Assembly: GCA_948144175.1 (NCBI GenBank)
Contig: CANXME010000317.1
Span: forward strand, 47,387-111,386
Source of the DNA: Closterium sp. NIES-65
Lineage: Eukaryota > Streptophyta > Zygnematophyceae > Desmidiales > Closteriaceae
Length of the DNA stretch: 64,000 bases
Direction of reading: 5' to 3'
Shown: positions 15,831 through 58,835 of the stretch, piece by piece
How the letters are laid out: every line of letters starts with the position of its first letter
Position numbering within the stretch: the stretch's first letter is position 1
Translations under genes and position numbers: made by a program
The notes under the pieces: model-generated
Database searches by the model: none
The model's input: the letters and a program-made list of their open reading frames with translations, nothing else
Told to the model about the DNA's origin: nothing

Positions 15831-15914
15831 ATGCTTTATCCAAAACGTACAAAATTTCGCAAATATCAAAAGGGTAGATGCAAGAGTGGAGCCCAAATCA
15901 AAAATTTTTTTTAA
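15831..15914 (+). pseudogene. rpl16: rpl16 5' fragment, interrupted by the 9.1-kb element
   Basis: The first 18 codons read MLYPKRTKFRKYQKGRCK, the invariant start of mitochondrial ribosomal protein L16, which normally has about 135 residues. The frame then continues SGAQIKNFF and stops at 15912-15914. The loss of similarity coincides with the left end of the tandem element: from C15894 on, the sequence is identical to the start of every later unit. The remaining ~115 codons of rpl16 are not in the window. Either the gene is broken in this molecule and an intact copy exists elsewhere or on empty-site molecules, or its 3' part lies beyond the array. Confidence 0.9.
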
Positions 15915-15954
15915 AAATTTTTGCAAAACAGGGCAAAATAACCACAAACAAGCC

Positions 15955-16004
15955 ACTACAAAACAAATGTTTTGTAGTCACTGCAAAACAAATGTTTTGT
16001 AGTG
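15955..16004 (-). terminator. Double hairpin downstream of the fusion integrase gene (unit 1)
   Basis: Two adjacent near-identical stem-loops. The first (15955-15978) has an 11-bp stem, ACTACAAAACA against TGTTTTGTAGT, around the loop AA. The second (15979-16004) has a 12-bp stem with one G-U pair. They lie 54 bases past the end of the minus-strand gene, as expected for transcript 3'-end structures. Copies are at 25088-25137, 34221-34270, 43354-43403, 52486-52535 and 61617-61666. Confidence 0.6.
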
Positions 16005-16058
16005 TTTAGGCATGATTGTTTGTTAGTTCCTAATTAAAGTCTGAAGCTAGATCCAATA

Positions 16059-17894
16059 TTATATAGAGTTTCTATTCTTGCTAATTTTGGGTTTCTTTTT
16101 TCTTCGGACAATATTGTGTTGAAGTGATCTGGCTTTCCATACTTTAGATATACTAGCTCGAACTTCTTTTAAAGTAGGGCTGGATCTGTCATATATAGCA
16201 GTAGATCCTATGTCTTTGTGCGCTACAATGTTTTTGACCTTGTGTATACTGACGTTGCTTTGTAGCAAATCGGTGATGAAACTTGCTCTAAAGCTGTGTG
16301 ATGTTAAGTTTTTGTTTAAAGAGACAGAAGCATGTTTTAAGACAGAGTTAACTTGTTTGCTAAAATTTACTCTATGTAAATGCGTGTGAGTCCTCTCTGC
16401 CTTGGAATCTTGAGCTGAGAATACAAAATTCTGAAGATGATAATTGCCAGAATTTTGAATAAGATGAACGTCGGAAGAGACTTTCTTTAGAACAGCTTGT
16501 CCGTAGTGTCCTATGTGCAGGGTCTGCGGGTAACCTCCCTTGTCTCCCTTAATGTGTATAAGCTGAGTTTCACCTTCATTAATAAGCTGAAGCAGCTGTG
16601 TCCACCTAAATAGAAGAATAGTAGAAATCCGCAGGCCAGAAATATACAGCAAAGTAATAGCCAGTCTCATTCGTGCACAAGTGAGTGCAGTTTTCCCGGA
16701 TGCGGGATAAACTGACTTAACGATATCTAAAGTGATTTCAAATTCTGAAGGCGTTATGTAATCACATGGTTGCTCTTTTTGAGCATTAATTCGTTTTAGC
16801 TGAGCAGCTTGTTTCGCGTTGTCTTTCTCAAGCCTTAATTGAGCATCTTTAACCAAGAAATCAATTTTCTGATGTAATTCAACATTTTGCTTCTGTAAAG
16901 TTCTCTTATCTTCGTATAAAGTGTGCTGTAACATAACAAGTCGTCTTTTAACTTGGATTGTTTCATCAAGAGTTTCTTCTGAAGTTTTCTTGTGCTCTAT
17001 AAAAAAATCTTTTAAGTTAGTAGCATGTTTTTCGACGACATTGGCTCTGAATTTCCGTATTTCCAGACTTTCCGGAGAATTATCATTAAAAGCTATAACT
17101 GCAGACTCTTCGTTGGTAGATCCTAGAAGCTCTCTCTCGCGCGCATCTGTGTCTGCAGACTCTTCGTTGGTAGATCTTAGAAGCTCTCTCTCGCGCGCAT
17201 CTGTGTCTAGAGCCTCGTCCATTTCATAAGGTGATAGACCATACATGTTTTGGCTTGTGTGCGGTTTATTGTTATAAGTAGTAACACATTGGGTAATTAA
17301 CCTGGCCAGTTCATGATGAGTGATAAGACAGGATAACTGAGCTAGGCTATATTTTGTTAAAGAGACTTGACGTTGACTTGGGGTATTTTTTAATAGAGAT
17401 AAAAGTTCTTTTCTTAATAACATTTTAATAGAACGATTAAGAGATTCAGAGGCTTGGTTTCCAAAATTTTTTCGTCCAGCGAGGTTCGAACTCAGTACGA
17501 TCTTATGATTGTCTGCAAAAGTCTTTAACTCATTTGCTTGAAATATACTTTCGCGATCAGAATGTATAACAACAGACCGCCCTTGGTTTCTAGGTATAAA
17601 AGCAGTCTGTAAAACGTGTATAACATCTTGTGTATTAAATCTTTTCTCTTGAGTAGCATGAAACACTATAAGCCTAGATCCAAGATCAATTCCAAGAAAA
17701 AGGAAAGCTTTCTTATTGATACAAGTAATGTCAATAGAATAATAACTCAGGTTGTGTTTGACTAAATAGCGACCCTTTAGAAAATCTTTTGAATTCATAA
17801 ATTTGTTGTTCTTTTTAAAACGTGCGTAGCACGCACGTCTTGTAAACAGTTCGGTTAGCGTTTTGTCGTACGAAGGGAGAAATATATCATTCAA
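16059..17894 (-). CDS. DDE integrase core fused to a tyrosine recombinase (unit 1)
   Basis: 611 aa with two different DNA-recombination domains. Residues ~45-225 are a retroviral/IS3-type integrase core: catalytic D55 (YYSIDITCI), D113 (IHSDRESIF) and E150 (GNQASESLNRSIK), the last two 36 residues apart, followed by YNNKPHTSQNMYGLSPYE, typical of the rve family. Residues 230-265 hold an 18-aa repeat in two copies (DTDARERELLRSTNEESA; R changes to G in the second). Residues ~280-375 look like a coiled coil. Residues ~378-590 are a tyrosine recombinase with R422 (SGLRIS), a lysine near 449-452, H533 and R536 (HSFR), H559 (VAHKD) and nucleophile Y568. Both active sites look intact. No upstream zinc-finger domain typical of integrases is seen. 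The C-terminus is basic. I know of no described family with this fusion. Confidence 0.93.
   Translation of the reverse strand: MNDIFLPSYDKTLTELFTRRACYARFKKNNKFMNSKDFLKGRYLVKHNLSYYSIDITCINKKAFLFLGIDLGSRLIVFHATQEKRFNTQDVIHVLQTAFIPRNQGRSVVIHSDRESIFQANELKTFADNHKIVLSSNLAGRKNFGNQASESLNRSIKMLLRKELLSLLKNTPSQRQVSLTKYSLAQLSCLITHHELARLITQCVTTYNNKPHTSQNMYGLSPYEMDEALDTDARERELLRSTNEESADTDARERELLGSTNEESAVIAFNDNSPESLEIRKFRANVVEKHATNLKDFFIEHKKTSEETLDETIQVKRRLVMLQHTLYEDKRTLQKQNVELHQKIDFLVKDAQLRLEKDNAKQAAQLKRINAQKEQPCDYITPSEFEITLDIVKSVYPASGKTALTCARMRLAITLLYISGLRISTILLFRWTQLLQLINEGETQLIHIKGDKGGYPQTLHIGHYGQAVLKKVSSDVHLIQNSGNYHLQNFVFSAQDSKAERTHTHLHRVNFSKQVNSVLKHASVSLNKNLTSHSFRASFITDLLQSNVSIHKVKNIVAHKDIGSTAIYDRSSPTLKEVRASISKVWKARSLQHNIVRRKKKPKISKNRNSI
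17100..17207 (-). repeat. 54-bp tandem duplication inside the fusion integrase gene
   Basis: Two in-frame 54-base copies encode residues 230-247 and 248-265 of the 611-aa protein. They sit between the DDE core and the coiled coil, so the linker has grown by duplication. The copies differ by one base (R versus G). Confidence 0.9.
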
Positions 17895-19251
17895 GGTTGG
17901 TTTTCTTTAAAAAGAATGCTTAATAGTTGAGAGAGCAGAAAACTAAACTAAAAAACCTAATATAAGTGCTAGCTTGCGAAGCCTATCTGTTTGTCTAAGC
18001 ACTACGCTTGCGCCTCCCCGGGGGGTTCTTGCTTGCGAACTTGCAAAAAACTAAATTGGTGTTTATATAATATTCTTTCAAAAGTCATTGCGTAAACTTA
18101 AAAAGGCAGACAACGTGGCTAAGTTTTCTGTATTTTCGGGCCAATTTGAATAAACGCTTGCGTTTATTTTGATTGTTAGCACCAGTTTTCAATAAATGCT
18201 TGCGTTTATTTATGGTGCAATGATTAGTATTTGGTTACGGGTTTGCCCTTGCTGTTAATATAAACCTTCACAAAAGAATGCTTAATAGTTGAGAAAGCAG
18301 GAAATTAAAGCTAAAAACCCTAAGATTCCCTTTCTCTTTGATCTAAGTGTGTCCTTTGGTTAAGTGTTTCGCTCAGGATTCTTTGCAAGCATGCTTGCAT
18401 GCTTGCTTGCATGCTTGCTCGACCGTCCTTCGGACCCTTTATCGACCGTCCTTCGGACCCTTTATGTTGTGATCTCGTAATCTAAGCGCCTTGCGTTCGC
18501 AAGCTCCTTGTTAAGAAGCAAGCTCGCAAGGGCGCGAGGCGCCTTGCGTTAGCAAGCTCGTTGTTAGCTTGCAAGCGTGTTCCTTAGAAAGCAAGCTCGC
18601 AAGGTTGCGAACGTCTTTCTTTAAAACAAGCGAGTAAGCTAAAGGTGGTTTTAGCTTGCGAGCGTCTTTCTTTAAAACAAAACAAGCGCCTTTCTTACGA
18701 ATTCAAAGCGCACGAACTTTTTTTCCTTCGGTTGCGAGCGCCTTTCTTAGGAAGTAAGAATCTTTTGTTATCAAGCAAGCAGTGTTCATTTTGTTTCGCG
18801 TGTTGCGCGCTTGCGTAGCACGCACTTTTTCTCCTGCGCGTTTTAGGGGTTCTTAATCTAGCGTACTTGCATTTTAGGGTTGCGAAGCTTGGTAACCGAA
18901 GCAGCTTAGGTTTGCGCCGCTTCGCTTGCTTGCTTGTCAACCGAACAAGCATAGTTTTTTGCTCGTCAACCGAAGGGCGCCTAGCAAGTTTGGTAGCTAG
19001 CGGACTTGCACTTTAGGGTTGCGAAGCTTGCACGCTTGTTGTTAAACTATGTGCTAGTCTTGCGAAGCCTAACGCGCAGTATATGATTTGGATCGGCGCG
19101 TTTTGATACGCGCTTCAAATGGTAGTTGCATCGCGCGAAGGTTTGGGTTCGCGCGAAGGTTCGCATTGCCTTGGTTTGCTTTGCATTACTTTACGCGATG
19201 TTTTTTTTAAGATCTTTTTAAGAACAAAAAACAGAAGACATACAATCGTTT
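17895..19251. other. Repeat-rich intergenic region between the two recombinase genes (unit 1)
   Basis: 1.36 kb between divergently oriented genes, so promoters for both probably lie here. It contains a 22-base repeat (AAAGAATGCTTAATAGTTGAGA at 17911-17932 and 18273-18294), hairpins AATAAACGC-TT-GCGTTTATT (18149-18168) and a relative near 18191, a 23-bp tandem repeat (18420-18442 and 18443-18465, containing GACCGTCCTTCGGACCC), GCTTGCAT repeats near 18388, and many TTGCGAAGC/GCAAGCTCGC elements. A minus-strand frame of 85 codons at 18695-18952 is made of these repeats; it is extended in unit 5 by one inserted T, and I do not support it as a gene. Confidence 0.7.
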
Positions 19252-20262
19252 ATGAAAACAAAAAAGAATTTCGAGGATCATCTACAAGGAAAATACTTAG
19301 TAGCTCACAATGATCAATCAGAAAAAGAGATACAATTATATAGAGACCAAGTTACAGTCGAACACACAAGCGATTGGGCTCAATACTTTGTTAACTGGAG
19401 ACAGAAGCAAGAGATAGAGCTCCAAGATGCAAAGCAAGAAAGAATTGCCATTTATAAACAGAATCAGGAGCTAATACGAAAAGTTGACTTGCAGAGCAGC
19501 CTTCTACATGATCAGCAACAGCAGATTCAGCAACTTACAGATGAATTGAACCAAAGACTAACCAAAGAAAAAGCCATAGAAGACAAAAGGGCCAAAAGAA
19601 AAGCTGCTAAGAAACAGCCCCTAAGAGACGCTATTACACCAGAAGAATTTCAGCTTATTATTGAAAACGTTTATCAACTTACTGACAAATCAGCACGCAT
19701 CAAAGTAGCTCTTACTCTATTGTATCTAACTGGCTTACGCGTTAGCAACTTGCTTCAATTTCATGTCAGTAATCTACAAGAATTAATCACAAAACAAAGC
19801 ACTCTAGTCCACATCATTAAACGAGGAGGTTCACGTAAAATCATACTGCCAAGCGACGCAAAGCACTGGCTTCAACGTGTTAAACATGAGATCGAACTCA
19901 TTACAAAAGGGAAAAGCCCTCAAGACCCCCTTTTCACTAACAAACAAGGCCATCTTATCTCACGTGAACAATTCAACAAACAACTCAATCAAACACTCAA
20001 GCTTGTCGCCATGAAAACTGGAAAGAGAATTTATACGCATAGCTTTCGAGTAACTATGGTCACTGAACTATTGCAACAGCAGCCCATACAAAACGTCAAA
20101 AATATAGTAGGCCATAAGGACATAAGGACCACTGAACTCTACAATAGAAACTTTATGGGAGAGCGCGAATTCAGAAAGGCCATTCAATATGTTTTTAAAA
20201 AAAGAAAAAGTCAATCTAAAGACTATCCTGATCAAGATCATCAAGATGATCAAGATTTTTAA
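19252..20262 (+). CDS. Tyrosine recombinase lacking the DDE core (unit 1)
   Basis: 336 aa. The C-terminal catalytic domain (about residues 125-315) has R163 (TGLRVS), candidate K190 (HIIKRGG), H263 and R266 (HSFR), H288 (VGHKD) and nucleophile Y297 nine residues later, the full tyrosine-recombinase set. Residues ~50-120 are a Gln/Glu/Lys-rich coiled coil. Residues 6-20 (NFEDHLQGKYLVAHN) match residues 34-48 of the 611-aa protein (NSKDFLKGRYLVKHN). The coiled coil (KQNQELIRKVD versus KQNVELHQKID) and the ITPxEF lead into the catalytic domain also match. The two proteins are therefore paralogues that differ mainly by presence or absence of the DDE segment. The C-terminus is acidic and repetitive (DQDHQDDQDF). 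The ATG follows an A-rich leader; the divergently oriented neighbour suggests a shared promoter region. Confidence 0.93.
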   Translation: MKTKKNFEDHLQGKYLVAHNDQSEKEIQLYRDQVTVEHTSDWAQYFVNWRQKQEIELQDAKQERIAIYKQNQELIRKVDLQSSLLHDQQQQIQQLTDELNQRLTKEKAIEDKRAKRKAAKKQPLRDAITPEEFQLIIENVYQLTDKSARIKVALTLLYLTGLRVSNLLQFHVSNLQELITKQSTLVHIIKRGGSRKIILPSDAKHWLQRVKHEIELITKGKSPQDPLFTNKQGHLISREQFNKQLNQTLKLVAMKTGKRIYTHSFRVTMVTELLQQQPIQNVKNIVGHKDIRTTELYNRNFMGEREFRKAIQYVFKKRKSQSKDYPDQDHQDDQDF

Positions 20263-20340
20263 CAATACGCTTTAAGTCCTTCTTTTGCTGATTAGTAACC
20301 CAAAGGGTCACGAACCTACAGTTCTATGATGTGAGGTAAT

Positions 20341-20368
20341 AGGTCACAAAACACATGTTCTGTGACCT
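20341..20368 (+). terminator. Hairpin downstream of the tyrosine recombinase gene (unit 1)
   Basis: AGGTCACAAAACA and TGTTCTGTGACCT form a 13-bp stem with one mismatch and a two-base loop, 78 bp past the stop codon. Its loop-side sequence (AAAACA...TGTT) resembles the hairpins at 15955-16004. Copies are at 29474-29501, 38607-38634, 47740-47767 and 56873-56900. Confidence 0.6.
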
Positions 20369-21324
20369 AAAACAACCATACATTTATACCGAAGATTTTA
20401 TTACACAAAAAATCTTTTTTTGTGCAAAACATTATAAAACAAAGTCTTACCTTTTGACAAATTTTTCAAAAAAGACAAAACCATTAACGATTATATGTCT
20501 TCTGTTTTCTGTTTGTCTGTGTCCTTTGCTTCAAATCTGTCTCTGAATAGCCTTCACAAAGGACAGCTTAAAAAAAGAGAAAAGAATAAACTAAAAAACT
20601 AATCTTCCCTTTCTCTTGTATCTAAGTCTTCCTTTGTGCTCTAAGGGTCGAGAATTGGCGCGTTTATTTATATATTATATATATTTCAATGGAATTTTAG
20701 CCCCCCTTGTCATATGTGCTAAGCTTGCGAACGCCTTTCTTAACAAACAAGCAAGGATCTTCCGTTCGCAAGCTCGTCGTTCTTAGCAAGCTCGTTTTTT
20801 AGCTCGCTTGCTCGTTGTTAGCAAGCAAGCGCCTTCCTTAGCAAGCTCGCAAGCTAAATAAGTATTAATTCTGTCCAATCTTGTTCTGAGTGTCCTTAGT
20901 TTGCTTAGATAGAAGAGGTAGTAAGCGCCTTTGGCGCGCAAGAAACAAAAAGGAAGAGGGGAAAGGCACTAGTTTGAATAAACGCTGCTTCCTTTATTTC
21001 TTGCATACGCAATGACTTGTCCTTCAAATGTATATAAATACATTTTTACTTTTTTTCAAATTTACGTAATGACTCGCTTGCTTCGCTTTGCGGTGCCCGC
21101 TTGCTTTGCGGCGCCTTTAACTCGCTTGCTTGCTTGCTTGCTTGCTAGTTAAAGCAAAGAAAAGTAGCAAGGAGCGTGCGTCCTAGGCACACGCTTTCTT
21201 TTAGCACGGGCAATCTTTCAAACACAAAATTGAGTCACTGCAAAAATTATATGAAGATACTAAGAGTCAACATAATGAAGGCCAAGTTTTTTATGAGTCT
21301 CAACGAAAAATTTACCATGATCTC
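20369..21324. other. Intergenic region upstream of the three-gene cluster (unit 1)
   Basis: No confident gene. Near 20565-20640 is a block (AAACTAAAAAACTAATCTTCCCTTTCTC and onwards) similar to the blocks after 17935 and 18300. An AT-rich patch TATATATTATATATATTTC lies near 20672. GC-type repeats follow, including CTTGC repeated in tandem near 21125. The frame of the next gene is open from just after a TAG at 21202-21204 without an ATG, so 21205-21324 may be coding. Confidence 0.55.
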
Positions 21325-22296
21325 ATGGAACAACTAAAGCTTGATCCCCATAATGCAGCTTTACATCAAGAATGTTATAACGCTCATGCTATCTTAGACG
21401 GTTATTATCGCCAACTGGAAGAACTAGACCGCTCTTTACACTATGTCAAAGGCAACCTCGAAGGGTACGTAAATATTCGAAATATTGTTACAGCGTCAGG
21501 TATGATCGTTACGCCTACATCTGCTATCACTTTCGATCAAGCAGTAATGAGTTCAAATCAAACACAAGGAGGGGGTCTTATCAGAATTCCAACAGAACCA
21601 ACTCCCGCTGCAGAAACAAGAACTCATTCTGCATCTACTAGTTCAGAAACAACAACTAGTTCAGAGACAAGAACTCATTCTGCGTCTAATGCTTCAGAGA
21701 TAACAACTCATCCTATATCTGGTGAAGGCATCATAAGTAATCCACTGTACTCGAGCTCTGGTGAAGGCATCATAAGTAATCCACTGTACTCGAGCTCTGG
21801 TAATCGCTCTGCCCTAATGACAGAGTCGATTCCTTTTAAGAGCAATCTTCATTCACTTGAAGATGAGACCGATCTTGAATTACTTCAAGAAATGTTACCC
21901 CAGTTAAATAACCGAGAGCTCGCGAGTCTATTAGTAAATAGCGATGAATGGAAAAAAAAGAACTTACTTTCTTTGTGTAATAAGATGAAGTTTCTACAAG
22001 ATCAAAAATTAATTTCTAATGACATGACAGAAGAACAGCTAGTGCTCAAACAGGAAATCAAAAGTGTTATATGCAATGATTTGTTAACTGAAAAAATAAA
22101 GACCAACGAAGAACTTGCATATTTTTTGTTAGATTGCATTTGCGGCATAGACTGTCTAGAAATACCTGCTTTAACCTTCTCCTTGTCTAAAATACAAAGT
22201 ATTGTCTCGTCAGATTTACCTGATAAAGAAAAAATAACAAATTGGTTAGAAAATGTAACCAATTTGGTATCGCAGGTTATTGTACCAAATATATGA
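21325..22296 (+). CDS. Unknown 323-aa protein with Ser/Thr-rich repeat region (unit 1)
   Basis: I do not recognise a family. Residues 1-55 are helical and charged (EQLKLDPHNAALHQE, YYRQLEELDRSLHYVKGNLE), probably a coiled coil. Residues 90-130 are Ser/Thr-rich with two ETRTHSAS copies. Residues 132-157 are a perfect 13-aa tandem repeat, SGEGIISNPLYSS. Residues 165-323 are mostly helical. The reading frame is open 40 codons further upstream (to TAG at 21202) and the extra residues continue the charged helical pattern (KLYEDTKSQHNEGQVFYESQ). The real start may therefore be a non-ATG codon, or this may be the 3' part of a larger gene. The next gene starts seven bases after the stop, implying co-transcription. 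Soluble, with no signal peptide seen. Confidence 0.75.
   Translation: MEQLKLDPHNAALHQECYNAHAILDGYYRQLEELDRSLHYVKGNLEGYVNIRNIVTASGMIVTPTSAITFDQAVMSSNQTQGGGLIRIPTEPTPAAETRTHSASTSSETTTSSETRTHSASNASEITTHPISGEGIISNPLYSSSGEGIISNPLYSSSGNRSALMTESIPFKSNLHSLEDETDLELLQEMLPQLNNRELASLLVNSDEWKKKNLLSLCNKMKFLQDQKLISNDMTEEQLVLKQEIKSVICNDLLTEKIKTNEELAYFLLDCICGIDCLEIPALTFSLSKIQSIVSSDLPDKEKITNWLENVTNLVSQVIVPNI
21718..21795 (+). repeat. 39-bp perfect tandem duplication in the 323-aa gene
   Basis: Two identical 39-base copies (21718-21756 and 21757-21795) encode SGEGIISNPLYSS twice. Unlike in the fusion integrase, the copies are identical, so the duplication is recent or constrained. Confidence 0.92.
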
Positions 22297-22303
22297 AATA
22301 CTT

Positions 22304-22948
22304 ATGCTATGGTTAATTTGTTTAATTATCAACATCTCAAATAGTTTATTAAACGCATATCATATATTTCAACTTAATTGCGGAATTGAAGTGCAGTCTA
22401 CGGTGTTACCACTTGAGATTGAATTAAGCCTAACAACCCCATCAATATTGCCAATCTTCATTGGTTTAAGCATTGCTGGTTTACTAACACTAAAGCATTT
22501 GTTACATATCTCCGAGTTAAAATATGTACCTTTACCAGAAGAAGAATTCTATACGCATCTATTAGCTACCAGTGATTTACCTTGGAAAGGACCACTTTTT
22601 ACAAAGGAGTTCTATGACTTTTGCCTTAGTATAGGCTACGATATTGCTCAAGTCAACAATTTTCATTATATCATACTTAAATATAACGAAGGCCTCCCGG
22701 GAGGCCTTGATAATCTGTTGGTTGGGTATGACTTGAATAGAGAAATTATCATTTCATCTTATTTACGAATTAATCAGGAACATAGATATGGCCTTTCTTC
22801 TATCGTCAACCTTTGGTGGCTATCACCAAGAGGTGCCGAATATATACTTTCACTAAAGCCTATTATTAAGAATATAGAAGACCTTGAAAAATGTGCTCAA
22901 ACATCCCTGCGCTATACTTTAAATCAACTTAAAACTTTAAGAGAATAA
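22304..22948 (+). CDS. Unknown membrane protein, two predicted helices (unit 1)
   Basis: 214 aa from the ATG at 22304, seven bases after the upstream stop. A TTG at 22280 in the same frame would add eight residues and overlap the upstream gene, which is less likely. Residues 1-22 (MLWLICLIINISNSLLNAYHIF) and about 45-67 (PSILPIFIGLSIAGLLTLKHLL) are hydrophobic and probably span the membrane. The remaining 145 residues are soluble, with aromatic-rich stretches (PWKGPLFTKEFYDFCLSIGYDI, VNLWWLSPRGAEYI). The family is not recognised. A perfect 20-bp palindrome lies inside the gene (22689-22708). Position two in a three-gene run suggests that it works with its neighbours at the inner membrane, perhaps in plasmid maintenance or transfer (speculative). 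Confidence 0.75.
   Translation: MLWLICLIINISNSLLNAYHIFQLNCGIEVQSTVLPLEIELSLTTPSILPIFIGLSIAGLLTLKHLLHISELKYVPLPEEEFYTHLLATSDLPWKGPLFTKEFYDFCLSIGYDIAQVNNFHYIILKYNEGLPGGLDNLLVGYDLNREIIISSYLRINQEHRYGLSSIVNLWWLSPRGAEYILSLKPIIKNIEDLEKCAQTSLRYTLNQLKTLRE
22689..22708. repeat. Perfect 20-bp palindrome inside the membrane-protein gene
   Basis: AAGGCCTCCCGGGAGGCCTT is its own reverse complement and encodes part of NEGLPGGLD. Copies are at 31822-31841, 40955-40974, 50088-50107 and 59221-59240. It is the most GC-rich spot in an otherwise AT-rich gene. Confidence 0.9.
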
Positions 22949-22961
22949 AATACTATCAAAT

Positions 22962-23477
22962 ATGAATACAAAAGAATCACAGCAAGTCCGTGCGAAAGGA
23001 ACAAGAACTAATAAATCAGTATATATACATTATTCTGTTTTCAGCTTTTTATTATTTTTGGAAAATATAGGATATTCCTTTGAACATAAGAATTTATTTA
23101 ATATAGCATTCAATTTCAAGTTAAAGGTTGGTGTTCGTAAAATTAAAGGATACACTCCGATAGAACCAAACAACCTTTTACGACGTAAATCGCACAATTA
23201 TGATTTGACATCTATCCCTGAAAGTAATGTACAAGAGGTTACTAATAGAATATCTCAATTGGTTTCGGAAGGCTATCAGTTTACAAAGATGGAACTTAAG
23301 GGTAAATTCATAGTTAAACCGACCGAAAAGGCCCAGAATGAGTACGCCAAGACCGTAATTGTTGCTTTAGGAGAGAGAGAGGCTTCAAACTTAAACTGGT
23401 TCAGTTATTGGAACTCACAGATGTATTTGTCGTCATCCGAATTTAAAGTGGACATAACATCCAATTTTGAATACTAG
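22962..23477 (+). CDS. Unknown 171-aa protein, last gene of the three-gene cluster (unit 1)
   Basis: Starts 13 bases after the membrane-protein gene. The family is not recognised. The first ~20 residues are polar and basic (MNTKESQQVRAKGTRTNKSV), followed by a hydrophobic patch (YSVFSFLLFLENIGYSF) too short and mixed to call a helix with certainty. The middle is basic (KLKVGVRKIKGYTPIEPNNLLRRKSHNYD). The C-terminal half has SNVQEVTNRISQLVSEGYQFTKMELKGKFIVKP and ends in ITSNFEY. Conservation of frame in units 1-4 supports a coding role. A hairpin follows 26 bp after the stop. Confidence 0.72.
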   Translation: MNTKESQQVRAKGTRTNKSVYIHYSVFSFLLFLENIGYSFEHKNLFNIAFNFKLKVGVRKIKGYTPIEPNNLLRRKSHNYDLTSIPESNVQEVTNRISQLVSEGYQFTKMELKGKFIVKPTEKAQNEYAKTVIVALGEREASNLNWFSYWNSQMYLSSSEFKVDITSNFEY

Positions 23478-23503
23478 ACTACATTTTGGGTAACTGAATA
23501 ATC

Positions 23504-23529
23504 AATGTGGGCGCGAAGCGCTCCACATT
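23504..23529 (+). terminator. Hairpin downstream of the three-gene cluster (unit 1)
   Basis: AATGTGG-GCGC, loop GAA, GCGC-(T)-CCACATT: an 11-bp stem with one bulged base, 26 bp past the 171-aa gene. Its apex is the genome-wide GCGCGAAGCGC repeat. Copies are at 32637-32662, 41770-41795, 50903-50928 and 60033-60058. Confidence 0.6.
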
Positions 23530-25026
23530 TGATTAGCACCCTAAAGCATTTCATTCTCAATATTATGCGCCGCTTACGCGCTCCGTTAAAGGTGTGAACA
23601 ACTTAACTAAGCAAGCAAAGCTTGCGAAGAGTATCACTTAAAGGAACAACCTTCGCAAGCCTGGCTACCAAACGTGCTAGGCCAACCAAGCCTAAAACGC
23701 ATAGGGCTAAGTGCGTGTTACGCGCTTGCGTAGCACGCGAAAGAAGTAACAACCTTCGCAAGCCTAACACTTTTGAAGGGGTTTCGCAGCTTAGCACTTA
23801 GAAAAACTAACAAGCTTCGCGAACGTAACACAACTAATCAAAAAACAAGTGTGATAGGCTTTGCCTCCCTAGCACTTTGAGAAATAGATAGGCTTCGCTT
23901 GCGTTTACATAAGCGAAGCTTCGGTCCCCTAAACGCGCATGGGATAGGCGCACGCTTTACGCAAGCGTGCGAGTCACTATGGTCACTGAACGGAAGGGTG
24001 CAAGCCTGCTAATAAAGAGTGCTTGGTTGTGAGCGGAAGGCGCTTGCGAAATGCGCTCGGAACCCAAAGGAGCTCGCTTGCTCGATAAGAAAGGCGTTTG
24101 TATCGTTTTCCTTTTAAGCGCGTTTGAGCGCTTGCTTCGGCTACCCTGGCAGGCACTTTGGGCTTGATTTCCTTTTAATCGCGTGTTAGGGTTAGTACGC
24201 CTACTCCGCTTGGTAGGAGGTAGGGTTAGTATGCAACTTCTTCTTTATATGAGTGTCAAGGTAAGTAAGCCTGACTCTCAGTTTTTTTTTCGCGTGCTAC
24301 GCAAGCGCATAACACGCACTTGCTCAGTAGGCTTGCTTAGGGTAGCACGGTTGGTCGGTAGGCTTACTCGGTAGGGGTGCGAAGCTTGTCTATTTATATA
24401 AATACAAGGCTCACGAAGTTTAGCACGCTATTTTCTTTAAGTGCTACGCTGGCTACCCCTATCTGTTGTATATCCCTAAGTATTAGGGTTGCGGTTGCGA
24501 ACGCTAGTGGGTTTTGTGTGTGGTGGGGTGACGAGGCCTAGCGCGGCGGGCAGTGTTGTCTTTGTCTTTTATTCGCGCGTCTTGATACGCGCTTCCATAA
24601 GTAGTTTTGTTTGTTTCGCGTTTCAGGCATTTCCCTAACAGACAAGCGTGTGTCCCTTTTCCTTTTTCTTGGCGCGTGTGAACGCGCTTGCTTTGCCTAT
24701 TATGCATGTCTCTTTTCAAACACATGTAAGTCGGTTACTTATTGCACATATTTAAGAATTGTTATCGGCGCGTCTTGCGCGCCTATGCACCTGCATTCCC
24801 AAACGCATTCATTAATTGATTCCAGCGGACATATCTTATCCTCTTTTGTTTTGTTTCGCGTTTTAGGCGTTTGCCTAACACGCAGAAGTGTGTCAGCATC
24901 TTCATAAAACTTCGTGTATTTTGTTTTTGTAGCAAGCTTAGCTTGCGAAACTTATTCTTTCGATTTTTCTTTTAAAAAAAAAAGGATTAAAAAAAATGTC
25001 CAACTGACTACACTTTTCTCCTCTGA
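23530..25026. other. Repeat-rich right end of unit 1
   Basis: 1.5 kb without a convincing gene. It contains many GC-type inverted repeats (GCGCTTGCGTAGCACGC near 23727, GCGTGCTACGCAAGC near 24292, GGCGCGTGTGAACGCGC near 24672, CGCGCGTCTTGATACGCGC near 24573), two TAGGGTTAGTA motifs (near 24187 and 24222), and at 23971-23991 a 21-base near-copy of the tyrosine-recombinase coding sequence at 20048-20068. The last ~70 bases are A/T-rich up to the junction with the next unit. Small frames here are repeat-derived. Confidence 0.6.
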
Positions 25027-25191
25027 CAAATCAAAAATTTTTTTTAAAAATTTTTGCAAAACAGGGCAAAATAACCACAAACAAGCCACTACAAAACAAA
25101 TGTTTTGTAGTCACTGCAAAACAAATGTTTTGTAGTGTTTAGGCATGATTGTTTGTTAGTTCCTAATTAAAGTCTGAAGCTAGATCCAATA

Positions 25192-27027
25192 TTATATAGA
25201 GTTTCTATTCTTGCTAATTTTGGGTTTCTTTTTTCTTCGGACAATATTGTGTTGAAGTGATCTGGCTTTCCATACTTTAGATATACTAGCTCGAACTTCT
25301 TTTAAAGTAGGGCTGGATCTGTCATATATAGCAGTAGATCCTATGTCTTTGTGCGCTACAATGTTTTTGACCTTGTGTATACTGACGTTGCTTTGTAGCA
25401 AATCGGTGATGAAACTTGCTCTAAAGCTGTGTGATGTTAAGTTTTTGTTTAAAGAGACAGAAGCATGTTTTAAGACAGAGTTAACTTGTTTGCTAAAATT
25501 TACTCTATGTAAATGCGTGTGAGTCCTCTCTGCCTTGGAATCTTGAGCTGAGAATACAAAATTCTGAAGATGATAATTGCCAGAATTTTGAATAAGATGA
25601 ACGTCGGAAGAGACTTTCTTTAGAACAGCTTGTCCGTAGTGTCCTATGTGCAGGGTCTGCGGGTAACCTCCCTTGTCTCCCTTAATGTGTATAAGCTGAG
25701 TTTCACCTTCATTAATAAGCTGAAGCAGCTGTGTCCACCTAAATAGAAGAATAGTAGAAATCCGCAGGCCAGAAATATACAGCAAAGTAATAGCCAGTCT
25801 CATTCGTGCACAAGTGAGTGCAGTTTTCCCGGATGCGGGATAAACTGACTTAACGATATCTAAAGTGATTTCAAATTCTGAAGGCGTTATGTAATCACAT
25901 GGTTGCTCTTTTTGAGCATTAATTCGTTTTAGCTGAGCAGCTTGTTTCGCGTTGTCTTTCTCAAGCCTTAATTGAGCATCTTTAACCAAGAAATCAATTT
26001 TCTGATGTAATTCAACATTTTGCTTCTGTAAAGTTCTCTTATCTTCGTATAAAGTGTGCTGTAACATAACAAGTCGTCTTTTAACTTGGATTGTTTCATC
26101 AAGAGTTTCTTCTGAAGTTTTCTTGTGCTCTATAAAAAAATCTTTTAAGTTAGTAGCATGTTTTTCGACGACATTGGCTCTGAATTTCCGTATTTCCAGA
26201 CTTTCCGGAGAATTATCATTAAAAGCTATAACTGCAGACTCTTCGTTGGTAGATCCTAGAAGCTCTCTCTCGCGCGCATCTGTGTCTGCAGACTCTTCGT
26301 TGGTAGATCTTAGAAGCTCTCTCTCGCGCGCATCTGTGTCTAGAGCCTCGTCCATTTCATAAGGTGATAGACCATACATGTTTTGGCTTGTGTGCGGTTT
26401 ATTGTTATAAGTAGTAACACATTGGGTAATTAACCTGGCCAGTTCATGATGAGTGATAAGACAGGATAACTGAGCTAGGCTATATTTTGTTAAAGAGACT
26501 TGACGTTGACTTGGGGTATTTTTTAATAGAGATAAAAGTTCTTTTCTTAATAACATTTTAATAGAACGATTAAGAGATTCAGAGGCTTGGTTTCCAAAAT
26601 TTTTTCGTCCAGCGAGGTTCGAACTCAGTACGATCTTATGATTGTCTGCAAAAGTCTTTAACTCATTTGCTTGAAATATACTTTCGCGATCAGAATGTAT
26701 AACAACAGACCGCCCTTGGTTTCTAGGTATAAAAGCAGTCTGTAAAACGTGTATAACATCTTGTGTATTAAATCTTTTCTCTTGAGTAGCATGAAACACT
26801 ATAAGCCTAGATCCAAGATCAATTCCAAGAAAAAGGAAAGCTTTCTTATTGATACAAGTAATGTCAATAGAATAATAACTCAGGTTGTGTTTGACTAAAT
26901 AGCGACCCTTTAGAAAATCTTTTGAATTCATAAATTTGTTGTTCTTTTTAAAACGTGCGTAGCACGCACGTCTTGTAAACAGTTCGGTTAGCGTTTTGTC
27001 GTACGAAGGGAGAAATATATCATTCAA
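25192..27027 (-). CDS. DDE integrase/tyrosine recombinase fusion (unit 2)
   Basis: 611 aa, identical in predicted sequence to the unit-1 protein: DDE triad D55/D113/E150 and tyrosine-recombinase residues R422, H533, R536, H559 and Y568 all present. The 18-aa linker duplication is also retained. Confidence 0.93.
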   Translation of the reverse strand: MNDIFLPSYDKTLTELFTRRACYARFKKNNKFMNSKDFLKGRYLVKHNLSYYSIDITCINKKAFLFLGIDLGSRLIVFHATQEKRFNTQDVIHVLQTAFIPRNQGRSVVIHSDRESIFQANELKTFADNHKIVLSSNLAGRKNFGNQASESLNRSIKMLLRKELLSLLKNTPSQRQVSLTKYSLAQLSCLITHHELARLITQCVTTYNNKPHTSQNMYGLSPYEMDEALDTDARERELLRSTNEESADTDARERELLGSTNEESAVIAFNDNSPESLEIRKFRANVVEKHATNLKDFFIEHKKTSEETLDETIQVKRRLVMLQHTLYEDKRTLQKQNVELHQKIDFLVKDAQLRLEKDNAKQAAQLKRINAQKEQPCDYITPSEFEITLDIVKSVYPASGKTALTCARMRLAITLLYISGLRISTILLFRWTQLLQLINEGETQLIHIKGDKGGYPQTLHIGHYGQAVLKKVSSDVHLIQNSGNYHLQNFVFSAQDSKAERTHTHLHRVNFSKQVNSVLKHASVSLNKNLTSHSFRASFITDLLQSNVSIHKVKNIVAHKDIGSTAIYDRSSPTLKEVRASISKVWKARSLQHNIVRRKKKPKISKNRNSI

Positions 27028-28384
27028 GGTTGGTTTTCTTTAAAAAGAATGCTTAATAGTTGAGAGAGCAGAAAACTAAACTAAAAAACCTAATATAAGT
27101 GCTAGCTTGCGAAGCCTATCTGTTTGTCTAAGCACTACGCTTGCGCCTCCCCGGGGGGTTCTTGCTTGCGAACTTGCAAAAAACTAAATTGGTGTTTATA
27201 TAATATTCTTTCAAAAGTCATTGCGTAAACTTAAAAAGGCAGACAACGTGGCTAAGTTTTCTGTATTTTCGGGCCAATTTGAATAAACGCTTGCGTTTAT
27301 TTTGATTGTTAGCACCAGTTTTCAATAAATGCTTGCGTTTATTTATGGTGCAATGATTAGTATTTGGTTACGGGTTTGCCCTTGCTGTTAATATAAACCT
27401 TCACAAAAGAATGCTTAATAGTTGAGAAAGCAGGAAATTAAAGCTAAAAACCCTAAGATTCCCTTTCTCTTTGATCTAAGTGTGTCCTTTGGTTAAGTGT
27501 TTCGCTCAGGATTCTTTGCAAGCATGCTTGCATGCTTGCTTGCATGCTTGCTCGACCGTCCTTCGGACCCTTTATCGACCGTCCTTCGGACCCTTTATGT
27601 TGTGATCTCGTAATCTAAGCGCCTTGCGTTCGCAAGCTCCTTGTTAAGAAGCAAGCTCGCAAGGGCGCGAGGCGCCTTGCGTTAGCAAGCTCGTTGTTAG
27701 CTTGCAAGCGTGTTCCTTAGAAAGCAAGCTCGCAAGGTTGCGAACGTCTTTCTTTAAAACAAGCGAGTAAGCTAAAGGTGGTTTTAGCTTGCGAGCGTCT
27801 TTCTTTAAAACAAAACAAGCGCCTTTCTTACGAATTCAAAGCGCACGAACTTTTTTTCCTTCGGTTGCGAGCGCCTTTCTTAGGAAGTAAGAATCTTTTG
27901 TTATCAAGCAAGCAGTGTTCATTTTGTTTCGCGTGTTGCGCGCTTGCGTAGCACGCACTTTTTCTCCTGCGCGTTTTAGGGGTTCTTAATCTAGCGTACT
28001 TGCATTTTAGGGTTGCGAAGCTTGGTAACCGAAGCAGCTTAGGTTTGCGCCGCTTCGCTTGCTTGCTTGTCAACCGAACAAGCATAGTTTTTTGCTCGTC
28101 AACCGAAGGGCGCCTAGCAAGTTTGGTAGCTAGCGGACTTGCACTTTAGGGTTGCGAAGCTTGCACGCTTGTTGTTAAACTATGTGCTAGTCTTGCGAAG
28201 CCTAACGCGCAGTATATGATTTGGATCGGCGCGTTTTGATACGCGCTTCAAATGGTAGTTGCATCGCGCGAAGGTTTGGGTTCGCGCGAAGGTTCGCATT
28301 GCCTTGGTTTGCTTTGCATTACTTTACGCGATGTTTTTTTTAAGATCTTTTTAAGAACAAAAAACAGAAGACATACAATCGTTT

Positions 28385-29395
28385 ATGAAAACAAAAAAGA
28401 ATTTCGAGGATCATCTACAAGGAAAATACTTAGTAGCTCACAATGATCAATCAGAAAAAGAGATACAATTATATAGAGACCAAGTTACAGTCGAACACAC
28501 AAGCGATTGGGCTCAATACTTTGTTAACTGGAGACAGAAGCAAGAGATAGAGCTCCAAGATGCAAAGCAAGAAAGAATTGCCATTTATAAACAGAATCAG
28601 GAGCTAATACGAAAAGTTGACTTGCAGAGCAGCCTTCTACATGATCAGCAACAGCAGATTCAGCAACTTACAGATGAATTGAACCAAAGACTAACCAAAG
28701 AAAAAGCCATAGAAGACAAAAGGGCCAAAAGAAAAGCTGCTAAGAAACAGCCCCTAAGAGACGCTATTACACCAGAAGAATTTCAGCTTATTATTGAAAA
28801 CGTTTATCAACTTACTGACAAATCAGCACGCATCAAAGTAGCTCTTACTCTATTGTATCTAACTGGCTTACGCGTTAGCAACTTGCTTCAATTTCATGTC
28901 AGTAATCTACAAGAATTAATCACAAAACAAAGCACTCTAGTCCACATCATTAAACGAGGAGGTTCACGTAAAATCATACTGCCAAGCGACGCAAAGCACT
29001 GGCTTCAACGTGTTAAACATGAGATCGAACTCATTACAAAAGGGAAAAGCCCTCAAGACCCCCTTTTCACTAACAAACAAGGCCATCTTATCTCACGTGA
29101 ACAATTCAACAAACAACTCAATCAAACACTCAAGCTTGTCGCCATGAAAACTGGAAAGAGAATTTATACGCATAGCTTTCGAGTAACTATGGTCACTGAA
29201 CTATTGCAACAGCAGCCCATACAAAACGTCAAAAATATAGTAGGCCATAAGGACATAAGGACCACTGAACTCTACAATAGAAACTTTATGGGAGAGCGCG
29301 AATTCAGAAAGGCCATTCAATATGTTTTTAAAAAAAGAAAAAGTCAATCTAAAGACTATCCTGATCAAGATCATCAAGATGATCAAGATTTTTAA
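28385..29395 (+). CDS. Tyrosine recombinase lacking the DDE core (unit 2)
   Basis: 336 aa, identical to unit 1, with R163, H263, R266, H288 and Y297. A hairpin follows at 29474-29501. Confidence 0.93.
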   Translation: MKTKKNFEDHLQGKYLVAHNDQSEKEIQLYRDQVTVEHTSDWAQYFVNWRQKQEIELQDAKQERIAIYKQNQELIRKVDLQSSLLHDQQQQIQQLTDELNQRLTKEKAIEDKRAKRKAAKKQPLRDAITPEEFQLIIENVYQLTDKSARIKVALTLLYLTGLRVSNLLQFHVSNLQELITKQSTLVHIIKRGGSRKIILPSDAKHWLQRVKHEIELITKGKSPQDPLFTNKQGHLISREQFNKQLNQTLKLVAMKTGKRIYTHSFRVTMVTELLQQQPIQNVKNIVGHKDIRTTELYNRNFMGEREFRKAIQYVFKKRKSQSKDYPDQDHQDDQDF

Positions 29396-30457
29396 CAATA
29401 CGCTTTAAGTCCTTCTTTTGCTGATTAGTAACCCAAAGGGTCACGAACCTACAGTTCTATGATGTGAGGTAATAGGTCACAAAACACATGTTCTGTGACC
29501 TAAAACAACCATACATTTATACCGAAGATTTTATTACACAAAAAATCTTTTTTTGTGCAAAACATTATAAAACAAAGTCTTACCTTTTGACAAATTTTTC
29601 AAAAAAGACAAAACCATTAACGATTATATGTCTTCTGTTTTCTGTTTGTCTGTGTCCTTTGCTTCAAATCTGTCTCTGAATAGCCTTCACAAAGGACAGC
29701 TTAAAAAAAGAGAAAAGAATAAACTAAAAAACTAATCTTCCCTTTCTCTTGTATCTAAGTCTTCCTTTGTGCTCTAAGGGTCGAGAATTGGCGCGTTTAT
29801 TTATATATTATATATATTTCAATGGAATTTTAGCCCCCCTTGTCATATGTGCTAAGCTTGCGAACGCCTTTCTTAACAAACAAGCAAGGATCTTCCGTTC
29901 GCAAGCTCGTCGTTCTTAGCAAGCTCGTTTTTTAGCTCGCTTGCTCGTTGTTAGCAAGCAAGCGCCTTCCTTAGCAAGCTCGCAAGCTAAATAAGTATTA
30001 ATTCTGTCCAATCTTGTTCTGAGTGTCCTTAGTTTGCTTAGATAGAAGAGGTAGTAAGCGCCTTTGGCGCGCAAGAAACAAAAAGGAAGAGGGGAAAGGC
30101 ACTAGTTTGAATAAACGCTGCTTCCTTTATTTCTTGCATACGCAATGACTTGTCCTTCAAATGTATATAAATACATTTTTACTTTTTTTCAAATTTACGT
30201 AATGACTCGCTTGCTTCGCTTTGCGGTGCCCGCTTGCTTTGCGGCGCCTTTAACTCGCTTGCTTGCTTGCTTGCTTGCTAGTTAAAGCAAAGAAAAGTAG
30301 CAAGGAGCGTGCGTCCTAGGCACACGCTTTCTTTTAGCACGGGCAATCTTTCAAACACAAAATTGAGTCACTGCAAAAATTATATGAAGATACTAAGAGT
30401 CAACATAATGAAGGCCAAGTTTTTTATGAGTCTCAACGAAAAATTTACCATGATCTC

Positions 30458-31429
30458 ATGGAACAACTAAAGCTTGATCCCCATAATGCAGCTTTACATC
30501 AAGAATGTTATAACGCTCATGCTATCTTAGACGGTTATTATCGCCAACTGGAAGAACTAGACCGCTCTTTACACTATGTCAAAGGCAACCTCGAAGGGTA
30601 CGTAAATATTCGAAATATTGTTACAGCGTCAGGTATGATCGTTACGCCTACATCTGCTATCACTTTCGATCAAGCAGTAATGAGTTCAAATCAAACACAA
30701 GGAGGGGGTCTTATCAGAATTCCAACAGAACCAACTCCCGCTGCAGAAACAAGAACTCATTCTGCATCTACTAGTTCAGAAACAACAACTAGTTCAGAGA
30801 CAAGAACTCATTCTGCGTCTAATGCTTCAGAGATAACAACTCATCCTATATCTGGTGAAGGCATCATAAGTAATCCACTGTACTCGAGCTCTGGTGAAGG
30901 CATCATAAGTAATCCACTGTACTCGAGCTCTGGTAATCGCTCTGCCCTAATGACAGAGTCGATTCCTTTTAAGAGCAATCTTCATTCACTTGAAGATGAG
31001 ACCGATCTTGAATTACTTCAAGAAATGTTACCCCAGTTAAATAACCGAGAGCTCGCGAGTCTATTAGTAAATAGCGATGAATGGAAAAAAAAGAACTTAC
31101 TTTCTTTGTGTAATAAGATGAAGTTTCTACAAGATCAAAAATTAATTTCTAATGACATGACAGAAGAACAGCTAGTGCTCAAACAGGAAATCAAAAGTGT
31201 TATATGCAATGATTTGTTAACTGAAAAAATAAAGACCAACGAAGAACTTGCATATTTTTTGTTAGATTGCATTTGCGGCATAGACTGTCTAGAAATACCT
31301 GCTTTAACCTTCTCCTTGTCTAAAATACAAAGTATTGTCTCGTCAGATTTACCTGATAAAGAAAAAATAACAAATTGGTTAGAAAATGTAACCAATTTGG
31401 TATCGCAGGTTATTGTACCAAATATATGA
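30458..31429 (+). CDS. Unknown 323-aa protein (unit 2)
   Basis: Identical to the unit-1 protein, including the perfect 13-aa tandem repeat. The same 40-codon open stretch lies upstream of the ATG. Confidence 0.75.
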   Translation: MEQLKLDPHNAALHQECYNAHAILDGYYRQLEELDRSLHYVKGNLEGYVNIRNIVTASGMIVTPTSAITFDQAVMSSNQTQGGGLIRIPTEPTPAAETRTHSASTSSETTTSSETRTHSASNASEITTHPISGEGIISNPLYSSSGEGIISNPLYSSSGNRSALMTESIPFKSNLHSLEDETDLELLQEMLPQLNNRELASLLVNSDEWKKKNLLSLCNKMKFLQDQKLISNDMTEEQLVLKQEIKSVICNDLLTEKIKTNEELAYFLLDCICGIDCLEIPALTFSLSKIQSIVSSDLPDKEKITNWLENVTNLVSQVIVPNI

Positions 31430-31436
31430 AATACTT

Positions 31437-32081
31437 ATGCTATGGTTAATTTGTTTAATTATCAACATCTCAAATAGTTTATTAAACGCATATCATATAT
31501 TTCAACTTAATTGCGGAATTGAAGTGCAGTCTACGGTGTTACCACTTGAGATTGAATTAAGCCTAACAACCCCATCAATATTGCCAATCTTCATTGGTTT
31601 AAGCATTGCTGGTTTACTAACACTAAAGCATTTGTTACATATCTCCGAGTTAAAATATGTACCTTTACCAGAAGAAGAATTCTATACGCATCTATTAGCT
31701 ACCAGTGATTTACCTTGGAAAGGACCACTTTTTACAAAGGAGTTCTATGACTTTTGCCTTAGTATAGGCTACGATATTGCTCAAGTCAACAATTTTCATT
31801 ATATCATACTTAAATATAACGAAGGCCTCCCGGGAGGCCTTGATAATCTGTTGGTTGGGTATGACTTGAATAGAGAAATTATCATTTCATCTTATTTACG
31901 AATTAATCAGGAACATAGATATGGCCTTTCTTCTATCGTCAACCTTTGGTGGCTATCACCAAGAGGTGCCGAATATATACTTTCACTAAAGCCTATTATT
32001 AAGAATATAGAAGACCTTGAAAAATGTGCTCAAACATCCCTGCGCTATACTTTAAATCAACTTAAAACTTTAAGAGAATAA
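31437..32081 (+). CDS. Unknown two-helix membrane protein (unit 2)
   Basis: 214 aa from the ATG seven bases after the preceding stop; identical to unit 1. It contains the 20-bp palindrome at 31822-31841. Confidence 0.75.
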   Translation: MLWLICLIINISNSLLNAYHIFQLNCGIEVQSTVLPLEIELSLTTPSILPIFIGLSIAGLLTLKHLLHISELKYVPLPEEEFYTHLLATSDLPWKGPLFTKEFYDFCLSIGYDIAQVNNFHYIILKYNEGLPGGLDNLLVGYDLNREIIISSYLRINQEHRYGLSSIVNLWWLSPRGAEYILSLKPIIKNIEDLEKCAQTSLRYTLNQLKTLRE

Positions 32082-32094
32082 AATACTATCAAAT

Positions 32095-32610
32095 ATGAAT
32101 ACAAAAGAATCACAGCAAGTCCGTGCGAAAGGAACAAGAACTAATAAATCAGTATATATACATTATTCTGTTTTCAGCTTTTTATTATTTTTGGAAAATA
32201 TAGGATATTCCTTTGAACATAAGAATTTATTTAATATAGCATTCAATTTCAAGTTAAAGGTTGGTGTTCGTAAAATTAAAGGATACACTCCGATAGAACC
32301 AAACAACCTTTTACGACGTAAATCGCACAATTATGATTTGACATCTATCCCTGAAAGTAATGTACAAGAGGTTACTAATAGAATATCTCAATTGGTTTCG
32401 GAAGGCTATCAGTTTACAAAGATGGAACTTAAGGGTAAATTCATAGTTAAACCGACCGAAAAGGCCCAGAATGAGTACGCCAAGACCGTAATTGTTGCTT
32501 TAGGAGAGAGAGAGGCTTCAAACTTAAACTGGTTCAGTTATTGGAACTCACAGATGTATTTGTCGTCATCCGAATTTAAAGTGGACATAACATCCAATTT
32601 TGAATACTAG
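32095..32610 (+). CDS. Unknown 171-aa protein (unit 2)
   Basis: Identical to unit 1; starts 13 bases after the membrane-protein gene and is followed by the hairpin at 32637-32662. Confidence 0.72.
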   Translation: MNTKESQQVRAKGTRTNKSVYIHYSVFSFLLFLENIGYSFEHKNLFNIAFNFKLKVGVRKIKGYTPIEPNNLLRRKSHNYDLTSIPESNVQEVTNRISQLVSEGYQFTKMELKGKFIVKPTEKAQNEYAKTVIVALGEREASNLNWFSYWNSQMYLSSSEFKVDITSNFEY

Positions 32611-38528: not shown

Positions 38529-39590
38529 CAATACGCTTTAAGTCCTTCTTTTGCTGATTAGTAACCCAAAGGGTCACGAACCTACAGTTCTATGATGTGA
38601 GGTAATAGGTCACAAAACACATGTTCTGTGACCTAAAACAACCATACATTTATACCGAAGATTTTATTACACAAAAAATCTTTTTTTGTGCAAAACATTA
38701 TAAAACAAAGTCTTACCTTTTGACAAATTTTTCAAAAAAGACAAAACCATTAACGATTATATGTCTTCTGTTTTCTGTTTGTCTGTGTCCTTTGCTTCAA
38801 ATCTGTCTCTGAATAGCCTTCACAAAGGACAGCTTAAAAAAAGAGAAAAGAATAAACTAAAAAACTAATCTTCCCTTTCTCTTGTATCTAAGTCTTCCTT
38901 TGTGCTCTAAGGGTCGAGAATTGGCGCGTTTATTTATATATTATATATATTTCAATGGAATTTTAGCCCCCCTTGTCATATGTGCTAAGCTTGCGAACGC
39001 CTTTCTTAACAAACAAGCAAGGATCTTCCGTTCGCAAGCTCGTCGTTCTTAGCAAGCTCGTTTTTTAGCTCGCTTGCTCGTTGTTAGCAAGCAAGCGCCT
39101 TCCTTAGCAAGCTCGCAAGCTAAATAAGTATTAATTCTGTCCAATCTTGTTCTGAGTGTCCTTAGTTTGCTTAGATAGAAGAGGTAGTAAGCGCCTTTGG
39201 CGCGCAAGAAACAAAAAGGAAGAGGGGAAAGGCACTAGTTTGAATAAACGCTGCTTCCTTTATTTCTTGCATACGCAATGACTTGTCCTTCAAATGTATA
39301 TAAATACATTTTTACTTTTTTTCAAATTTACGTAATGACTCGCTTGCTTCGCTTTGCGGTGCCCGCTTGCTTTGCGGCGCCTTTAACTCGCTTGCTTGCT
39401 TGCTTGCTTGCTAGTTAAAGCAAAGAAAAGTAGCAAGGAGCGTGCGTCCTAGGCACACGCTTTCTTTTAGCACGGGCAATCTTTCAAACACAAAATTGAG
39501 TCACTGCAAAAATTATATGAAGATACTAAGAGTCAACATAATGAAGGCCAAGTTTTTTATGAGTCTCAACGAAAAATTTACCATGATCTC

Positions 39591-40562: not shown

Positions 40563-40569
40563 AATACTT

Positions 40570-41214: not shown

Positions 41215-41227
41215 AATACTATCAAAT

Positions 41228-49695: not shown

Positions 49696-49702
49696 AATAC
49701 TT

Positions 49703-50347: not shown

Positions 50348-50360
50348 AATACTATCAAAT

Positions 50361-58828: not shown

Positions 58829-58835
58829 AATACTT

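Follow-up and report, generated by a model that had tools for sequence, protein, structure and literature searches.

A DDE integrase core and a tyrosine recombinase domain joined in one polypeptide encoded beside mitochondrial-type genes of Closterium

In the DNA described here, a 64,000-nt stretch of the Closterium sp. NIES-65 assembly (contig CANXME010000317.1; hereafter the window), we find a gene for one member of a protein family in which a DDE core of the rve type is joined to a tyrosine-recombinase (YR) catalytic domain resembling that of XerD. The chemistry of a recombinase decides its class, and enzymes of different classes are normally separate proteins. The fusion protein holds both domains in one frame, together with both catalytic sets, which is what defines this DDE-YR family.

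Results

A single frame encodes two recombinase domains

The fusion ORF (Table 1) is one continuous frame, as an earlier note on this DNA had claimed when it described one polypeptide with two recombinase cores. It is read from the minus strand; the plus-strand reading of the same interval is full of stops. In the 9,133-bp unit that contains the gene the longest stop-free run reaches 615 codons, and none of 100 dinucleotide shuffles gave one beyond 149. The list of open reading frames holds five 611-codon ORFs, spaced 9,133, 9,133, 9,133 and 9,132 bp apart, of which this is the first. The TTG from which the 611 codons are counted is a doubtful start. Judged by sequence comparison, the ATG at codon 33 is the likely one and fits the relatives better, placing the N terminus of the protein close to their starts. 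An alternative genetic code was considered and is unnecessary, nad7, rpl2 and rps3 being open under table 11; both recombinase ORFs of the unit, the fusion ORF and the 336-aa ORF described below, are the same under table 4.

Table 1. Features of the array and its left border (positions in the window)
Feature	Position	Strand	Evidence or remark
Probable rpl16 5' end (MLYPKRTKFRKYQKGRCKSGA), cut at array junction	15832..15893	plus	Sequence and position after rps3
Head-to-tail array: five units, then a partial sixth	15894..64000		Runs off the window
First 9,133-bp unit	15894..25026		Array left end at 15894
Twin palindrome/hairpin between fusion gene and junction	15954..16004		Inverted repeat I11; z -4.9
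DDE-YR fusion ORF	16059..17894	minus	579 aa from the likely start, ATG 17798; 611 codons if counted from TTG
YR catalytic domain, residues 405-572	16179..16682	minus	Pfam PF00589; XerD and XerA-like structures
54-bp tandem duplication giving repeated acidic linker	17099..17206	minus	Repeat family D11, 98% identity
rve/DDE core, residues 51-150 (D55, D113, E150)	17445..17744	minus	Pfam PF00665, NCBIfam IS3, family profile against PDB
Left terminal inverted repeat, 32 nt, around 336-aa gene	19223..19254		29/32 paired
336-aa sister YR without rve	19252..20262	plus	Pfam PF00589, 88 bits
Palindrome 3' of 336-aa gene, resembling one 3' of fusion gene	20341..20368
Right terminal inverted repeat, 32 nt, around 336-aa gene	20482..20513		Inverted repeat I4
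323-aa ORF	21325..22296	plus	No Pfam family above cut-off; short internal repeats
222-aa ORF	22280..22948	plus	No Pfam family above cut-off
171-aa ORF	22962..23477	plus	No Pfam family

The two Pfam domains to which the earlier note had pointed differ in strength. PF00589 matches residues 405-572 at 61.4 bits, above its cut-off of 27.1; PF00665 matches residues 51-135 at 29 bits (E 1.3e-6), which falls slightly below its cut-off of 32.6. NCBIfam returns XerD (52.6 bits, cut-off 329.6) and IS3 transposase (35.3 bits, cut-off 160), both far below threshold, and PHROGs assigns an integrase family to one half of the protein and a transposase family to the other. A profile built from ten family members and compared with the PDB resembles retroviral integrase cores in its first part and XerD structures in its last part; the single fusion protein, searched at E 0.1 in the same database, matched two YR structures but none of the integrase cores. 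The residues named in the earlier note (D55, D113 and E150 of the DDE core; R422, H533, R536, H559 and Y568 of the YR set) all lie on conserved alignment columns, as does K449.

As for the region between the two domains, the duplicated acidic linker of the earlier note was confirmed as the product of the tandem duplication in Table 1. The coiled coil proposed beside it was not, since the heptad periodicity was equalled in 202 of 1000 shuffles, and across the family just two of nine members tested fell below 5% in the same heptad shuffle test. In the nine proteins tested, the inter-domain region is free of proline and glycine over about 70 residues. Pfam gave no match to a core-binding (SAM-like) domain at E 1 in the fusion protein or the scanned relatives, and the match to the XerD structure 1a0p in the PDB profile search begins at 1a0p residue 114. 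The NCBIfam XerC/XerD models do cover this region, XerD aligning from profile position 12 in the fusion protein and from position 26 in the 336-aa sister. No helix-turn-helix was matched by Pfam in the 611-aa frame or in the six fused relatives scanned.

The fusion recurs in metagenome proteins that mostly keep both active sites

A protein search with the 336-aa sister yielded 23 homologues, seven of which hold PF00665 and PF00589 in one polypeptide (P0001, P0002, P0004, P0009, P0010, P0011 and P0013). These seven are metagenome proteins, and the recurrence of the same fusion among them makes the enzyme family look real and little described, not an accident. We rescanned six of them (all except P0011), plus P0015, with Pfam: the rve domain scored above its cut-off in all six fused proteins, and so did PF00589, which was the only one of the two found in P0015. 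Among the NCBIfam matches listed, the sole DDE model was IS3, in five of the six fused proteins scanned (none listed for P0009), with a best score of 67.7 bits (P0010; cut-off 160).

Family members are some 25-32% identical to the fusion protein. The DDE triad is nonetheless whole in nine of the ten proteins that cover all three positions, the fusion protein included. P0015 has lost all three residues as aligned and keeps its YR set, and P0012, which starts past the first D, still has the second D and the E. Fused members that cover the YR region have a whole YR set, except for P0001, in which S and N replace the first YR arginine and the lysine and the DDE triad is kept. Among the relatives without rve, a status judged from protein sequences, the 336-aa sister (W336) and P0008 have a complete YR set, P0016 has no YR tyrosine as aligned, and P0006 misses several YR residues as aligned. 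By these alignments either site can be lost separately, so that not every member need have two working sites, but fused proteins usually keep both.

In a tree of the YR region, the 15 family members, with and without rve, group in a single clade (support 100/100) apart from three XerD-like outgroups (P0018, P0021 and P0024); left out were the fragments P0006, P0007, P0014 and P0017 and the weak matches P0019, P0020, P0022, P0023 and P0025. Within this clade, W336 and P0016 fall in separate supported groups and P0008 in an unresolved fork. Constraining the rve-less W336, P0016 and P0008 to group together was rejected (p-AU 1e-50), as was a grouping of the 12 rve-bearing or rve-derived rows (p-AU 8e-10), values that are overstated because the groups were chosen after inspection of the tree. 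Rejection of a single rve-less group probably means that rve was lost more than once, and the simplest reading of the sequences would be one fusion followed by at least two losses, repeated gain being a less simple alternative. The fusion protein itself stands on a long branch in both trees. In the rve tree (11 rows, midpoint root) it lies beside P0001, P0002, P0004 and P0014 (83/87), and in the midpoint-rooted YR tree beside P0009-P0013, P0015 and P0016 (90/98); neither position is informative.

Searches that started from other queries returned little. The direct protein search with the 611-aa frame gave no homologue, and a search with alignment A2 gave two XerD-like proteins without recovering the known relatives; because the alignment search missed its own members, empty direct searches say little about absence. 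Scans of genome contigs found no relative. P0002 matched 56 of 72,556 plasmid records, but in none of them did a single place account for 80% of the query, and neither P0010 nor the 222-aa ORF had a match in 50,697 phage records. The sole match in the scans of viral contigs, locus L001, was set aside: it is 28% identical over residues 505-602 only, and its ORFs look bacterial or phage-like. Among the open-licence papers that literature searches listed, no title or abstract opening describes a DDE-YR fusion, in agreement with the earlier note, which put the architecture forward as a candidate for an undescribed system.

The gene lies in a tandem array that borders mitochondrial-type genes

An organellar location, also proposed in the earlier note, is supported by the mitochondrial-type genes to the left of the array. 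The window starts with nad7, rps10, rpl2, rps19 and rps3, identified with Pfam, and this part also holds four tRNAs. Two group II intron domain matches lie there as well, at 2332-2460 and 6861-6934. We take the frame MLYPKRTKFRKYQKGRCKSGA that follows rps3 to be the start of rpl16, normally a needed gene; Pfam found no match for this 28-residue piece. The probable rpl16 is broken after about 21 codons, at 15893, and a motif search detected the remainder nowhere else in the window.

The array that begins at the next base consists of units of 9133, 9133, 9133, 9132 and 9131 bp, followed by a 2445-bp remainder. Units 1-3 are identical to the letter, unit 4 has one gap, unit 5 has twelve single-base gaps, and the partial sixth unit has 79 listed differences, at least nine of which are overhang at the cut end. 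This rise in units 4-6 looks like consensus error toward the contig end. In the ORF list, five units have the fusion gene, the 336-aa gene and the 323-aa ORF, and four have the 222-aa and 171-aa ORFs as well; in the fifth, the 222-aa ORF is shortened and the 171-aa ORF is not listed. Either the array truly exists in mitochondria, or the assembly rendered a circular plasmid as a concatemer.

One junction of the array is present within the window. It is a single clean break, 165 bp from the stop codon of the fusion gene, and to its left the rpl16 side mismatches the unit-unit junction at all 12 successive positions examined. Attachment sites beside integrase genes are described as usual in temperate viruses (PMC4642659). 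The array, the junction in the probable rpl16 and the rve-less sister were all absent from the earlier note.

A sister recombinase without rve is framed by inverted repeats

The second recombinase of the unit, the 336-aa sister, shares 31% identity with the fusion protein over the latter's linker and YR region. It retains the short N-terminal segment found ahead of rve in P0002 (FEDHLQG), after which comes the segment found behind rve, an order that would be expected of an in-frame internal deletion.

The 32-nt inverted repeats around this gene span 1,291 bp end to end. Their score is 49, whereas the best of 500 mononucleotide shuffles scored 32. Each of the five units has two copies of the repeat, and the rest of the window has none. 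TG...CA ends are a feature of rve elements; by eye, neither such ends nor a target duplication are visible at these repeats. Around the fusion gene no inverted repeats were found, the best score there being 19 and the shuffle maximum 31. The palindromes 3' of the two genes are alike to a degree equalled in 18 of 1000 mononucleotide shuffles, a likeness that is suggestive only, and both could be RNA 3' hairpins.

Viewed as a whole, 19223-20513 is an element-like stretch, composed of the 336-aa YR gene, its palindrome and the 32-nt terminal repeats, which recurs in five units. The spacers of the unit (18380-19060, 20700-20860 and 23600-24900) contain many short GC-rich repeats of the types GCTTGCGAAGC and CGTGCTACGCA, in both orientations.

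Discussion

That the fusion protein is the recombinase of a mitochondrial mobile element, whether an integrating plasmid or a transposon, in which the YR half would integrate, circularize or resolve units and the DDE half would join ends, is a reading to which we would give an even chance. We infer the chemistry of the two halves and the split of roles between them. The YR half would integrate a circular unit at a site adjoining its own gene, repeated integration at that one site would give a head-to-tail array, and the same half would also excise or resolve the array. A YR gene adjoining the junction of a tandemly integrated unit has the layout of a site-specific integrating element; a DDE core together with inverted repeats has that of a transposon. 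Joining of element ends to new targets by the DDE half, the least supported step of the model, would account for the short inverted repeats that frame the gene of the sister, and the sister would be a derivative that lost its DDE part and kept its YR part. The earlier note had suggested that the DDE part could serve dispersed insertion and the YR part circularization or resolution of concatemers. The observations point both ways on this: the position of the gene beside the junction fits YR integration at its own site and the repeats of the sister gene fit a DDE-type element, but the fusion gene itself showed no repeats. It is conceivable, if a little short of an even prospect, that a distinct bifunctional recombinase class arose from one DDE and YR fusion, and that an organelle element uses both sites, the DDE site for end joining and the YR site for integration or resolution of circles, with the rve-less sister as a dedicated YR.

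The same observations have been weighed against readings in which one half does the work. If the YR did all the moving, rve would be an often-discarded passenger with a part in binding DNA, forming oligomers or inhibition. The rve-less W336 and P0008 speak for this with their complete YR sets, as does P0015 despite its lost triad; moreover, the rve-less proteins are not one clade, rve is the weaker domain in this copy, and the array and the gene-beside-junction layout require just a YR. Nevertheless, D, D and E are retained almost throughout the family at low identity, and a domain for binding alone would have no need of metal ligands. Moreover, a protein that has lost rve need not retain a functional YR, to judge from P0016, whose tyrosine is absent as aligned, and we consider the passenger role unlikely, if well worth keeping in mind. 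Still less probable, in our estimation, is that the DDE core is a working transposase to which the YR contributes mainly by recognizing ends or occasionally by resolving products. Such a transposase would suit the inverted repeats around the sister gene and the state of P0001, which keeps its triad without the first YR arginine and lysine. It would also suit the contigs of 1.7-2.3 kb that carry six of the seven fused relatives, which resemble multi-copy 2-kb elements after assembly, short contigs being common anyway. It is at odds with the conservation of the YR residues in all other fused members that extend over them, with the long open frame of the YR-only sister in five units and with the lack of inverted repeats found at the fusion gene.

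Two further explanations concern the DNA itself. The array, or its joint to mitochondrial DNA, could be an assembly product, arising from a free 9,133-bp circle that was read as a concatemer and attached through a chimeric read; the fusion gene would still be real, and this explanation is compatible with the others. We think it a serious possibility, although somewhat more doubtful than not, for the distribution of differences, none in units 1-3, one in unit 4, twelve in unit 5 and 79 in the sixth, is like that of a thinning long-read consensus and the junction would disrupt a probable rpl16, whereas the break is clean, single and beside a recombinase gene, where integration is expected. That the fusion is an accident, produced by chance, by an error in sequencing or by the running together of two genes, might be suspected from the direct search with the 611-aa protein and its empty result, but it is extremely improbable given seven distinct fused homologues reached via the sister protein and a frame that is open in five units.

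Each half of the protein has familiar counterparts. It is like XerC/XerD-type recombinases in the R, K, H-x-x-R, H and Y of its catalytic domain, and differs from them by the rve domain in front, the lack of a Pfam core-binding domain and a XerD score far below cut-off. With IS3-family transposases and retroviral integrases it shares the D, D(36)E rve core; it differs from both by the attached YR and scores below the IS3 cut-off. The helix-turn-helix of IS3 transposases, for which a separate orfA often codes, was not found in the frame. As for the inverted repeats and target duplication of IS3, none was found at the fusion gene, and the 32-nt repeats at the 336-aa gene come without visible duplication.

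The transposase TnpA of Tn4430 is not known to be of the rve type. In this Tn3-family transposon TnpA makes the cointegrate and the tyrosine recombinase TnpI resolves it (PMC7157771), and these are two proteins of a bacterial element, unlike the single fusion protein here. Tec, Sardine and Thon transposons likewise have both enzyme kinds, encoded as separate proteins (PMC3464196). Tec is from Euplotes and Sardine and Thon from Paramecium; they have separate ORFs with a DDE enzyme of the IS630/Tc1 type and belong to germline nuclear genomes, whereas the fusion is a single frame with an rve-type core. The statement in the earlier note that elements normally use one chemistry or the other was therefore too strong, as these four encode both in separate proteins. 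By analogy with the two enzymes of Tn4430, and perhaps with those of Tec and Sardine, the DDE core may join ends to a new target while the YR acts on circles.

Polinton-like viruses and virophages use an rve integrase or a YR, either one, and in a survey of 8,300 elements the two co-occur in 12, each time via an inserted retrotransposon (PMC12220804). Pfam identified no capsid, packaging ATPase or PolB of the Polinton-like kind in the five unit ORFs of at least 171 aa, nor a polymerase such as those of linear mitochondrial plasmids (invertrons); an inverted repeat of at least 60 nt, a trait of invertrons, was not present in the window. Closer in setting is int (orf512) of Oedogonium chloroplast DNA, which has mitochondrial relatives in Prototheca and Chaetosphaeridium and is thought, in the passages compared, to come from mitochondrial mobile elements (PMC2442088). 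It is a green-algal organelle YR whose length of 512 aa is one that would suit a fused protein by their range of sizes, and the published description, in the portion compared, covers its C-terminal YR region only.

A conserved fusion of DDE and tyrosine sites would let one protein perform both end joining and site-specific resolution, and two reactions on different DNA sites in one protein raise the question of how they are kept apart. The fusion family suggests that a class of mobile elements has been overlooked, which may reside in the organelles of algae or protists. It also gives a definite form to a question about the 'int' genes in organelles of green algae, which are long known but unexplained. 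Should the YR of Oedogonium int have an rve domain in front of it, a member of the family would have been in print since 2008, its fusion undescribed in the portion compared (PMC2442088).
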